The notes under the pieces: model-generated
Databases searched by the model: none
The model's input: the letters and a program-made list of their open reading frames with translations, nothing else
What the model was told of the DNA's origin: nothing
Translations under genes and position numbers: made by a program
Part shown: in pieces, positions 11,971-15,509 of the stretch
Layout: the number at the start of each line of letters is the position of its first letter
How positions within the stretch are numbered: the first letter of the stretch is position 1
Origin: Coriobacteriia bacterium
Lineage (GTDB): Bacteria > Actinomycetota > Coriobacteriia > WRKU01 > JAENWW01
Assembly (NCBI GenBank): GCA_016649875.1
Contig: JAENWW010000006.1
Location: forward strand, 1 to 40,000
Direction of reading: 5' to 3'
Length of the DNA: 40,000 bases

Positions 11971-13884
11971 ATGATTAAAATTTCACTTCCGGATAACTCG
12001 GTAAAAGAGCTCGAAACAGGTGCTTCGGTGCACGATGTCGCCGCGGCGATAGGTGCTCGTTTGGCCGCCGCCGCACTTGCGGGTAAAGTCAACGGGGCAC
12101 TCGTCGACACGTCCACGGTGGTGAACGACGGTGATGCGGTGGAGATAATCACCGAAAAAAGCCCTGAGGCACTCGATCTTTTGCGCCACTCGACGACACA
12201 CCTCATGGCCGAGGCAGTGGCCGATCTCTATCCGGGGACTAAATTCGGTATAGGTCCGTCAATCGAAGACGGTTTTTACTATGACTTTGAGACGGACCAT
12301 GCGTTTTCTCCGCAAGACCTCGAGGTAATCGAGAAACGTATGCATGAGCTTGCAAAGGATGCCAAACATTTCGAACGCAGTGTGGTTTCGCGTAACGAAG
12401 CTCTCAAAGATTTCGCCGGGCAAGAATATAAACAAGAGTTGATATCCGAACTTTCGGAAGGCGAGCCCATCTCGGTGTACTCCAACGGAGTGTTTGCCGA
12501 TCTCTGCCGTGGTCCCCATGTGCCGAATGCATCTTTCATCAAGGCATTCAAACTCATGAAAGTCGCCGGCGCTTATTGGCGGGGCAGCTCGGATCGCCCC
12601 ATGTTGCAACGTATTTACGGTACCGCATGGTTCAATCAAAAAGATCTCGAAGCCTATACCACGCGTCTGGAGGAAGCCGAGCGTCGTGACCATCGCAAGC
12701 TCGGTAAGCAACTCGACCTCTTCAGTTTTCCCGAGATTGCAGGTCCCGGATTGCCGGTCTACCATCCCAAAGGGGCACGTACGCTGCGTCTTTTGCAGGA
12801 CTGGCTCCGCGCGACGCTTTACAAACGTGGATACGAAGAGGTGATCACGCCGCACATCTACAAATCCGAAGTCTGGAAGATCTCGGGGCACTATGATAAC
12901 TACAAGGATGACATGTACTTCTTCAATGTGAACGAGGGCGAAGGGCGTGTCAGCGAATACGGCGTGAAGCCGATGAACTGTCCCGGTCACATGATGATTT
13001 ACGGCGCGAACATCCATAGCTATCGCGAACTGCCCATGCGGCTCTTCGAATTCGGCACGGTGTATCGCCACGAGCTTTCCGGCGTCGTGCACGGTCTTAT
13101 GCGTGCTCGCGGTTTCACTCAAGACGATGCTCACATATTCTGCCGTCCTGATCAGGTGCCTGAAGAGGTGAACCGGATTCTCGACCTCGTCGACTACGTC
13201 ATGGGAGTCTTCGGGTTCGAGTACAGCGCGGAAGTCTCGACTCGTCCGGAGAAGTCGATCGGCGACGACGCGATGTGGGAAGTGACGACGAATGTGCTCA
13301 AAGACACGCTCGATAAGCGCGGCGTCGAGTACGAGGTCAACGAAGGCGACGGAGCATTCTACGGTCCGAAGATCGACATCAAGCTTCGCGACGCAATCGG
13401 ACGTACGTGGCAGTGCTCGACAATCCAGTTCGATGCATTCCTTCCCGAGCGTTTCGAGCTCGAGTACCGGACGGCCGAAAACACCACTGCGCGCCCCGTC
13501 ATGCTTCACCGCACCATCCTCGGCTCGATGGAGCGTTTCTTCGGCATCTTGATCGAGCACTATGCGGGAGCATTCCCCACATGGTTGGCGCCTGTGCAGG
13601 CAGAAATAATCCCCATCAGCGACGACCAGATTCCTTATGCTCGTGAAGTTGCAGATAAGCTCGCCGATGCAGGTGTCCGTGTCGAAATCGACGACTCCAA
13701 TGAGCGGATGAATGCGAAAATCGCACGAGCCCAGGTACAAAAAGTTCCCTACATGGTGGTTCTCGGCAAGAAAGAAGCGGAGAGCGGAGATATTTCGGTG
13801 CGACATCGTAGCGAAGGTGATCTCGGAGCATGTAAAATCTCTGTGCTTGCCGATAGGATAAAAAAGGAAATTCCTCTAGTGTAA
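11971..13884 (+). CDS. thrS: Threonyl-tRNA synthetase
   Basis: Class II synthetase charging tRNA-Thr. The 637 residues start with a TGS domain (MIKISLPDNSVKELETG) and continue with the SAD editing domain around 65-225. The catalytic core has zinc ligands Cys337 (MNCPGH), His388 (DDAHIF) and His513 (MLHRT), and the anticodon-binding domain starts near 540. The only fitting start is ATG 11971, yet the nearest strong Shine-Dalgarno, AAGGAG at 11951-11956, is 14 bases away, unusually far. An out-of-frame ATG at 11958 sits one base after it. No T-box precedes the gene, although thrS is often T-box controlled in related phyla. Confidence 0.95.
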   Translation: MIKISLPDNSVKELETGASVHDVAAAIGARLAAAALAGKVNGALVDTSTVVNDGDAVEIITEKSPEALDLLRHSTTHLMAEAVADLYPGTKFGIGPSIEDGFYYDFETDHAFSPQDLEVIEKRMHELAKDAKHFERSVVSRNEALKDFAGQEYKQELISELSEGEPISVYSNGVFADLCRGPHVPNASFIKAFKLMKVAGAYWRGSSDRPMLQRIYGTAWFNQKDLEAYTTRLEEAERRDHRKLGKQLDLFSFPEIAGPGLPVYHPKGARTLRLLQDWLRATLYKRGYEEVITPHIYKSEVWKISGHYDNYKDDMYFFNVNEGEGRVSEYGVKPMNCPGHMMIYGANIHSYRELPMRLFEFGTVYRHELSGVVHGLMRARGFTQDDAHIFCRPDQVPEEVNRILDLVDYVMGVFGFEYSAEVSTRPEKSIGDDAMWEVTTNVLKDTLDKRGVEYEVNEGDGAFYGPKIDIKLRDAIGRTWQCSTIQFDAFLPERFELEYRTAENTTARPVMLHRTILGSMERFFGILIEHYAGAFPTWLAPVQAEIIPISDDQIPYAREVADKLADAGVRVEIDDSNERMNAKIARAQVQKVPYMVVLGKKEAESGDISVRHRSEGDLGACKISVLADRIKKEIPLV

Positions 13885-13902: not shown

Positions 13903-13930
13903 TTTACATATCCTGTTTTTTTGGTAGAAT
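13903..13930 (+). promoter_or_regulatory. Promoter P1 downstream of thrS
   Basis: TTTACA (13903-13908), a 16-base spacer and TAGAAT (13925-13930) form a good sigma-A type promoter. A start is expected near 13937, only about 36 bases before the strong terminator at 13973. Confidence 0.6.
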
Positions 13931-13972
13931 GAATGTAAGATTTTTCGGGGGATCGGTATCAACAGACGGTGA

Positions 13973-14002
13973 GGGGCTCCGGAATCGGAGCTCCTTCCAT
14001 TT
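13973..14002 (+). terminator. Strong terminator after thrS, or attenuator of P1 transcripts
   Basis: GGGGCTCCG (13973-13981) pairs with CGGAGCTCC (13986-13994) around a GAAT tetraloop, with one G-U pair, and is followed by TTCC and eight T residues. It ends thrS transcription. It also terminates RNA from P1, leaving a short RNA of roughly 65 nt. Confidence 0.88.
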
Positions 14003-14031
14003 TTTTTGGAAGACTTTACGTTTCGGCTTCC

Positions 14032-14060
14032 TTGCAAAGCAAAACGGAGCCTGCTATACT
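14032..14060 (+). promoter_or_regulatory. Promoter P2 of the infC-rpmI-rplT operon
   Basis: TTGCAA (14032-14037), 17 bases, then TATACT (14055-14060) with an extended TGC before it: a near-consensus promoter. The start is expected near 14067, giving a leader of about 240 nt before infC. Confidence 0.75.
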
Positions 14061-14066
14061 TTCTAT

Positions 14067-14308
14067 TCGCGTGTTTACACGTAAAGCGAACAACCGCACT
14101 ATCGCTGGTGCTGTTGTTCCGCCCTCCGGCTTTAAAATTATTAAATGCTTGCGGGTCGACACATAGTCACAATACGTTACGATTGTTTTGTATTGTGCTC
14201 GGATGACTTTTTGTTTCCCGTCGGCCTCACACATTTCGGGCTGATGGGATTGTTAATTTTTCAGGGTCGATATGTAAGTGCGACCCGCAAAGCACCATGG
14301 AGGTGACA
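14067..14308 (+). promoter_or_regulatory. Structured infC leader with competing helices, candidate autoregulatory element
   Basis: Several pairings are perfect or nearly so. GAACAAC/GTTGTTC (14088-14094, 14113-14119) has an inner GCAC/GTGC. A 10-bp long-range helix joins TTGCGGGTCG (14149-14158) to CGACCCGCAA (14281-14290). Inside it lie CACAATAC/GTATTGTG (14168-14175, 14190-14197) and a 10-bp stem CCCGTCGGCC/GGCTGATGGG (14217-14226, 14239-14248). A second GGGTCG at 14264-14269 can pair locally with CGACCC at 14281-14286, which excludes the long-range helix. CCTCC at 14123-14127 could mask the Shine-Dalgarno GGAGG at 14299-14303. Known infC operons are controlled by IF3 or L20 acting on the leader. 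I infer a similar switch here but do not recognise a named RNA family. Confidence 0.55.
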
Positions 14309-14851
14309 ATTATAAGCAGCGAACATCGTGTCAACGAGGAGATCCGCTCGAGTAGATGCAGACTCATCAGCAATGAGGGCGACCAGATGGGTATTTTTGC
14401 CGTAGTCGACGCTCAACGTATTGTCGATGAACAAGGGTATGATCTTGTCGAGATCGCCTCGAATGCCGACCCGATAGTATGCAAAATCATGGATTACGGC
14501 AAATTCAAGTATGAATTGGAAATAAAAGAGAAGCAGGCTCGTAAGAATCAAATCAGGGTCGACATCAAAGAAATGAAGTTTCGGCCCAAAGTCGATAGGC
14601 ATGATTACGAGACGAAGAAAAATCATATTCTGAGATTTCTGGAAAGCGGCTCGAAAGTCAAAGTGACCATCATGTTTCGCGGCCGAGAAATGTCACGACC
14701 GGAGATGGGACTCAACATCCTCGAGCAGTTGGCCAATGAGCTCGAAGGATTGGCAATTATCGAGAACCAACCGAAGCTCGAAGGTCGAAACATGCACATG
14801 TTGATTTCGCCTCTTAAGAAAAAAGAGGTTAAAGATAGTAAGGACGAATAA
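14309..14851 (+). CDS. infC: Translation initiation factor IF-3 (probable AUU start)
   Basis: IF-3 binds the 30S subunit, checks initiator tRNA and start codon, and prevents premature subunit joining. The protein begins [14 protein letters not shown], the usual IF-3 N-terminus. It then has the N-domain, a lysine-rich linker (KEKQARKNQ) and the C-domain [20 protein letters not shown]. The Shine-Dalgarno GGAGGTGA (14299-14306) is ideally spaced for ATT at 14309, and overlaps the only upstream in-frame ATG (14297), which itself lacks a binding site. AUU starts are well known in infC, where IF-3 discriminates against them and so represses its own synthesis. With this start the protein has 180 residues; from 14297 it would have 184. 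Confidence 0.93.
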
Positions 14852-14862
14852 GGAGATTACGT

Positions 14863-15060
14863 ATGCCAAAGATGAAAACTCATAAGGGTGCAGCTAAGCG
14901 CTTTCGTGTGACGGGCACAGGCAAGGTTATGCGGGGCAAGGCGTATAGCAGTCACATTCTCACCAAGAAGTCGCCGAAGCGTAAGCGCAACTTCCGTCAG
15001 GATGGTCTCGTGTCCGCTGCCGACACCAGTATGGTACTCAAGAAGCTGGGGCGCGGTTAA
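14863..15060 (+). CDS. rpmI: 50S ribosomal protein L35
   Basis: A 65-residue, very basic protein beginning [13 protein letters not shown], the L35 signature, with [12 protein letters not shown] in the middle. The start ATG 14863 has AAGGAGA just upstream, overlapping the infC stop region. The infC-rpmI-rplT order is conserved across bacteria. Confidence 0.97.
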
Positions 15061-15096: not shown

Positions 15097-15453
15097 ATGC
15101 CACGTGTAAAACGAGCGGTTAACGCACATAAGAAGCGCCGCACAATGTTGACTCGCGCGAAGGGATATTACGGCGCGAAGAGCCGTACCTATCGTGCAGC
15201 GAAAGAGCAAGTACAGCATTCGATGCAGTATACCTACCGAGATCGCCGTAATAAGAAGCGCGAGATTCGTCGCCTTTGGATTACACGTATCAATGCAGGT
15301 GCACGCTTGAACGATATGTCGTATTCTCAGTTCATAAACGGGCTCAAGAAAGCCGATATCACGCTCGATCGTAAGATCCTTTCCGATATGGCTATCAACG
15401 ATTCCGCATCATTTACCAAGCTCATCGAGGCCGCGAAGGCAGCGCTTGCGTAG
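15097..15453 (+). CDS. rplT: 50S ribosomal protein L20
   Basis: The 118-residue protein begins [17 protein letters not shown] and includes [17 protein letters not shown] and [12 protein letters not shown], all diagnostic of L20. It nucleates early 50S assembly on 23S rRNA. In several bacteria L20 also binds the leader of its own operon to repress it, which makes it a candidate ligand for the leader at 14067-14308. AAGGAG at 15080-15085 supports the ATG at 15097. A terminator follows 30 bases after the stop. Confidence 0.97.
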
Positions 15454-15483: not shown

Positions 15484-15509
15484 ACCTCCCTTTATCAGGG
15501 AGGTTTTTT
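15484..15509 (+). terminator. Terminator of the infC operon
   Basis: ACCTCCC and GGGAGGT pair around a short loop, and a run of T residues follows. Placement 30 bases after rplT is typical. Confidence 0.9.

Follow-up and report, generated by a model that had tools for sequence, protein, structure and literature searches.

Results

Genes and signals around the infC leader

The window analysed here, 40,000 nt of DNA, comes from a member of Coriobacteriia with a genome of 1.4 Mb; its family is represented by two genomes only, the window genome and G001 (locus L082). The gene order is thrS (11971-13884), leader, infC, rpmI, rplT. Pfam matches to IF3, L35 and L20 confirmed the operon order infC-rpmI-rplT, with the leader directly upstream: infC (14312-14851) encodes IF3 (IF3_N and IF3_C), rpmI (14863-15060) encodes L35 (PF01632) and the last gene, rplT (15097-15453), encodes the presumed ligand, L20 (PF00453, 151.7 bits). 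These three genes, the leader elements described below and an operon-end terminator recognised in the sequence (ACCTCCC..GGGAGGTTTTTT, 15484-15509) are all on the forward strand. A consensus scan placed a candidate sigma-70-type promoter at 14032-14060 (TTGCAA, 17 nt, TATACT, with TG before the second hexamer; 9/12 consensus matches). A TATACT-like box was present in relatives at about the same distance from the core, and transcription of the leader would start near 14067.

The gap between thrS and infC also holds, at 13903-14003, a promoter-like site (TTTACA-16-TAGAAT) followed by GGTATCAACAGACG and an intrinsic terminator. G001 has a promoter-like site, GGTATCAACTGACG and a terminator in the same order, and a second, one-mismatch copy elsewhere. 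The unit is possibly a small RNA or a thrS terminator unit.

The Shine-Dalgarno sequence of infC, GGAGG, is at 14299-14303, and GGAGGUG/GGAAGGUG is kept in relatives. It is followed in the window by AUU (14309) and AUA (14312-14314), of which the alignment favours AUA, and an in-frame AUA, AUC or AUU follows the Shine-Dalgarno sequence in 91/92 leaders. The gene is likely annotated from the ATG at 14297, which overlaps its own Shine-Dalgarno sequence; as read from the alignment, translation probably starts at AUA 14312 or AUU 14309 instead. The window infC thus probably has the start, other than AUG, GUG or UUG, that autocontrol by IF3 through the start codon requires.

The leader contains an L20-type core

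The infC leaders of Coriobacteriia share a common layout, AAGY, P1, C-RCC-U-n-CGGC, loop and GCUG-nnn-GGUY, and this architecture was present in nearly all of those examined. The window leader reads AAGC, P1, C-GCC-CUC-CGGC, loop and GCUUGCGGGUC, deviating from the class consensus in that GCC-CUC replaces RCC-UU. The AAG element (14084-14086), with its AA dimer (14084-14085) before P1, was invariant in 28/28 aligned relatives and stands in the same register as the AAG of the Rfam L20 leader, RF00558. The P1 hairpin (14088-14119) has seven outer pairs and an inner 6-bp stem, and in relatives two-sided changes were found at 6/6 modelled pairs. P1 of the window (14092-14119) has 13 pairs, much longer than usual. 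The 5' strand of the core (14120-14130; consensus CACCUnnCGGC) pairs with the 3' strand, GCUUGCGGGUC (14147-14157; consensus GCUGnnnGGUC), which is the putative switching strand. The two consecutive C-G pairs of the core, C14122-G14155 and C14123-G14154, were invariant in 58/58 relatives, and the window core has both the AA dimer and the two consecutive C-G pairs of an L20 site. The core loop (14130-14147) forms an AU-rich stem, UUUAA..UUAAA, in the window and is GC-rich in relatives. Downstream of the core, the minimum free energy fold contains a P3 spacer hairpin, CACAAUAC...GUAUUGUG (14165-14199, P about 0.85), that is variable in relatives. At letter level, the core resembles the organism's own 23S rRNA (CUAAGUGG ... 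CUCACUGGUC in L123), a likeness given no weight in the reading below.

The core is conserved across the class

Two covariance models were built. R1 was made from 28 leaders, all outside the order to which the window belongs; its helices were 98% paired, and at the infC leader it matched G001 (26 bits, E 5e-5) as well as G003 and G004. On the window, R1 with default filters missed the leader; with filters off it aligned at the right place with 6.8 bits, which was not the best match in 2.5 kb. Since this score was too low, the training set had to be widened to the remaining members of the order. R2, made from 58 leaders that include the rest of the order and leave the window out, matched the window at 14082-14161 with 20.5 bits (E 4.6e-4 in 5 kb, filters off), the next-best match scoring 6.7 bits. 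R2 found exactly one site per genome in 132/150 Coriobacteriia genomes.

Co-variation was counted in two alignments. In A2, 96% of cells in the core helices were paired, and there were 99 two-sided changes compared to 34 on average in shuffles and 21 at most in slid controls; A2 was fitted to the model, and its two-sided count therefore leans towards it. The unfitted alignment, A1, gave 39 two-sided changes compared to 14.5 in shuffles.

In a phylum-wide genome search, R2 matched only three genomes outside Coriobacteriia. In most of the 54 Actinomycetes loci, R1, although trained on Coriobacteriia only, placed a core between 80 and 320 nt upstream of infC, a signal visible only when the search was limited to infC neighbourhoods. 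R1-like cores before infC (L027-L080) were found in Streptomyces, Nonomuraea, Demequina and other Actinomycetes, and 16 of the 20 such leaders that were checked had a terminator-like hairpin.

Relation to the Rfam L20 leader

The initial annotation did not recognise this architecture and proposed a search against Rfam. The Rfam scan of the window returned tRNAs only, and RF00558 found nothing there even at E values of up to 5. Once relatives were aligned, the leader became recognisable as a divergent L20-leader core with an antiterminator and a terminator. At its gathering cutoff of 58.7 bits, RF00558 matched 0/150 Coriobacteriia genomes and 1/150 Actinomycetota genomes. That single match, L175 (65.6 bits), was also found by R2 (E 9e-7) at the same place and in the same register, with infC directly downstream. 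L016 and L015 aligned to RF00558 below the cutoff (E 0.005 and 0.021), with the AAG, the hairpin and CCU/GGU in register. Because L175 is matched by both RF00558 and R2, and R2 matches the window, the sequence comparisons argue that the window leader is homologous to L20 leaders through intermediates, though it formally fails the Rfam cutoff. The window is a weak member of the L20-leader type; by alignment, it appears to be a divergent, unannotated variant of the L20-leader-type attenuator, in a version that is common to the class and missed by Rfam. Two Actinomycetota genomes have T-box leaders downstream of infC on the same strand (L175, 82-315; L176, 53-277).

The 3' strand of the core can pair with the terminator

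An intrinsic terminator hairpin, UCCCGUCGGC...GCUGAUGGGA, was predicted at 14216-14249 (P 0.98-0.99), followed by a degraded U-tract, UUGUUAAUUUUUC (14250-14262). A terminator is located 3' of the core in 78/80 leaders. The U-tract of the window is joint weakest among 78 leaders: its best 7-nt stretch has four T, compared to five to seven in 76 others. When folding of the growing transcript was modelled, the window leader formed the core, then an antiterminator, then the terminator together with the core. The antiterminator pairs GGGUCGAC (14153-14160), which overlaps the 3' strand of the core, with GUCGGCCU (14220-14227), within the 5' arm of the terminator. Its probability was 0.92-0.96 with the transcript end at 14228-14240 and 0 by 14248, where the predicted fold had replaced it with the terminator and the core. 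G001 has an identical 8-bp antiterminator. In 72 leaders, pairing between the 3' strand of the core and the 5' arm of the terminator was stronger for native than for swapped combinations (-16.8 compared to -13.2 kcal/mol, p <= 5e-5), and native pairs beat GC-matched swaps in 55/66, in tests from which shared ancestry was not fully removed. On the predicted folds and the co-variation, the conserved switch is the choice of the core 3' strand between the L20 core and the 5' arm of the terminator. Equilibrium folding without ligand favoured the terminator over the antiterminator, so read-through must be kinetic.

A long helix reaching the Shine-Dalgarno sequence is specific to the window genome

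The initial annotation had described a bistable switch of translation in this leader. Its elements were located correctly: a 10-bp helix between UUGCGGGUCG (14149-14158) and CGACCCGCAA (14281-14290), a second GGGUCG at 14264-14269, CCUCC at 14123-14127, which lies inside the 5' strand of the core, and the GGAGG at 14299-14303. The view that the infC leader is structured and of the switch type was also borne out, both by the conserved core, antiterminator and terminator and by the fold energy of the leader (-91.6 kcal/mol compared to -71.0 in shuffles, sd 4.7, z -4.4). The helix extends to 14146-14162/14278-14294 with 16 pairs and two one-base bulges. Its duplex energy was -27.6 kcal/mol compared to a shuffled mean of -13.8, a strength reached in 0/5000 shuffles. 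In the full-leader ensemble the long helix had a probability of 0.90 and the CCUCC-GGAGG mask of about 0.9. With the growing transcript at 14290, P2 of the core fell to 0 and the long helix rose to 0.86-0.90 while the Shine-Dalgarno sequence was still unmade.

Both proposed states were reproduced in silico, but the free RNA was not bistable: the competing local GGGUCG/CGACCC hairpin (14264-14286) had a probability of about 0 in free RNA and of 1.0 only when the L20 core was enforced, a state about 4.7 kcal/mol above the free ensemble. The Shine-Dalgarno sequence was open at 0.06 in free RNA compared to 0.59 with the core enforced. The local-hairpin state would thus free the Shine-Dalgarno sequence as claimed, but in a direction opposite to autorepression by L20. 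Masking by CCUCC is predicted in the window but showed no co-evolution across genomes. Complementarity between the core and the Shine-Dalgarno sequence was weaker in native than in swapped combinations (-8.9 compared to -9.4 kcal/mol; p 0.9997 in the test for stronger native pairing), and such masking was rejected as a class-wide mechanism.

Covariation, proposed as a check of the long helix, did not uphold it. The equivalent pairing in G001 had -11.4 kcal/mol and a probability of about 0.01, with 3284/5000 shuffles at least as strong, and G001 has no second GGGTCG copy after the terminator. Because of these two results, the helix does not stand as a conserved switch. An apparent conservation in G001 (CUUGUGGGU/GUUCACAAG, with one pair changed on both sides from C-G to U-A) was ruled out by the shuffles. 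Other leaders within the order showed no such helix either, and on these comparisons the long helix appears specific to the window genome. Between 60 nt before and 30 nt after its terminator, G001 has a potential helix of its own, GCGCUC..UUUUUCAG with CUGAAAUGAGCGC; the GCGCUC/GAGCGC part has a probability of about 0.36, and the helix differs from that of the window.

Discussion

An L20-type attenuator before infC, with separate control by IF3 through the start codon, is in our view the best explanation of this leader, with a probability of roughly 0.8. Its anatomy, homology, conservation and co-variation are observed. In the mechanism that we propose, the core of the nascent leader (AAG, P1 and the CC/GG junction) would fold into a shape that binds L20, and its 3' strand could alternatively pair with the 5' arm of the terminator to form the antiterminator 14153-14160/14220-14227. 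When little L20 is free, the antiterminator would form and RNA polymerase would read through. Excess L20 would bind the core and keep its 3' strand, so that the terminator at 14216-14249 forms and transcription stops. IF3 would separately control the translation of infC via the non-AUG start (AUA, or AUU). In B. subtilis, binding of bL20 promotes the terminator in the infC leader (PMC6097659, PMC10931766); the window leader has the layout expected of this mechanism, and by analogy L20 may act here. L20, named with IF3 in the initial annotation, is the best-supported controller, in addition to IF3 via the start codon, and is the probable ligand.

The same leader could instead switch translation, the long helix masking the Shine-Dalgarno sequence with CCUCC and L20 flipping it to the local hairpin 14264-14269/14281-14286. 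This is decidedly unlikely. The helix is far above chance, the two states are 4.7 kcal/mol apart with clearly different Shine-Dalgarno openness, and the weak U-tract could signal that control has moved to translation in this lineage; yet the helix is not conserved in G001 and was unseen in other leaders of the order, complementarity between core and Shine-Dalgarno sequence shows no selection, the free RNA is not bistable in the predicted ensemble and L20 would be an activator, contrary to autorepression. A translational switch is at most lineage-specific. Since the 3' strand of the long helix lies 3' of the terminator, the helix has no part in the attenuation choice. It can form only once the polymerase is beyond the terminator, and in the modelled transcript it displaces P2 before the Shine-Dalgarno sequence emerges. 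Both are consistent with a one-way lock, in which the helix would form only in read-through transcripts and take the 3' strand of the core once 14277-14294 is made, so that L20 no longer binds the finished mRNA (or an RNase III site arises), with no regulatory choice of its own. Such a lock would be confined to one genome, and we consider it unlikely. The helix may lock read-through mRNAs in this lineage only, it may add a new layer of translational control, or it may have arisen by a recent accident; the weak U-tract keeps the translational layer among the possible readings. In an extended form, which is quite unlikely, the 3' strand of the core would be captured beside the Shine-Dalgarno sequence after read-through as by a third partner, one strand setting both transcription and translation while control moves from a weakening terminator to translation.

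Control by IF3 through the non-AUG start, with the RNA structure incidental, would fit the AUA, AUC or AUU starts found in nearly all leaders, and in E. coli IF3 is known to control its own gene through the non-AUG start ATT, the infC start of Streptomyces being ATC (PMC5472188). Start-codon control, however, can do without a leader, and still the class has conserved a co-varying core, an antiterminator and a terminator. Moreover, the L20 and IF3 controls are compatible, and we regard IF3 as the sole controller as highly improbable.

The L20 leader has been described as confined to Firmicutes (PMC6097659). The core is conserved through Coriobacteriia and also precedes infC in Streptomyces and other Actinomycetes, almost always below the Rfam cutoff. 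The distribution of this type of leader is class-wide and probably phylum-wide, and Rfam does not capture it. If this is true, control of infC-rpmI-rplT by L20 attenuation goes further back, or is shared by more lineages, than has been assumed. It is also a candidate explanation for long actinobacterial infC leaders, among them the 326-nt 5' UTR of infC in M. tuberculosis (PMC3207917), and R1 and R2 make the idea directly testable. The infC starts across Coriobacteriia are likely misannotated.

The closest known system is RF00558, the leader of B. subtilis infC-rpmI-rplT. Both precede infC-rpmI-rplT, both have an AAG, hairpin and CCU..AGG/GGU core in one register, and the optional hairpin H3, downstream rho-independent terminator and alternative structures of B. 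subtilis (PMC6097659, PMC10931766) have predicted counterparts in the window, the terminator there being a candidate one. Unlike RF00558, the window has a longer P1, a CGGC/GCUG inner stem, GCC-CUC for CACCU, a weak U-tract and a long helix, specific to this genome, that extends to the Shine-Dalgarno sequence. The L20 translational operator of E. coli, a pseudoknot and hairpin before rpmI, shares the ligand family and a long-range pairing near a translation start. Control in E. coli acts on the translation of rpmI-rplT with infC exempt (PMC10931766), whereas the window leader lies before infC and contains a predicted terminator; as far as seen, the two are not homologous. The deltaproteobacterial L20 leader candidate (Eckert and Weinberg 2020, PMC7247131) also mimics the 23S site with an AA dimer and two adjacent G-C pairs, and is set apart, by its description, as another scaffold in another lineage. 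Finally, IF3 autocontrol in E. coli (AUU) and Streptomyces (AUC) resembles the window in the AUA or AUU after a strong Shine-Dalgarno sequence; in contrast to both, the start in Coriobacteriia is mostly AUA and would act beside a leader switch.
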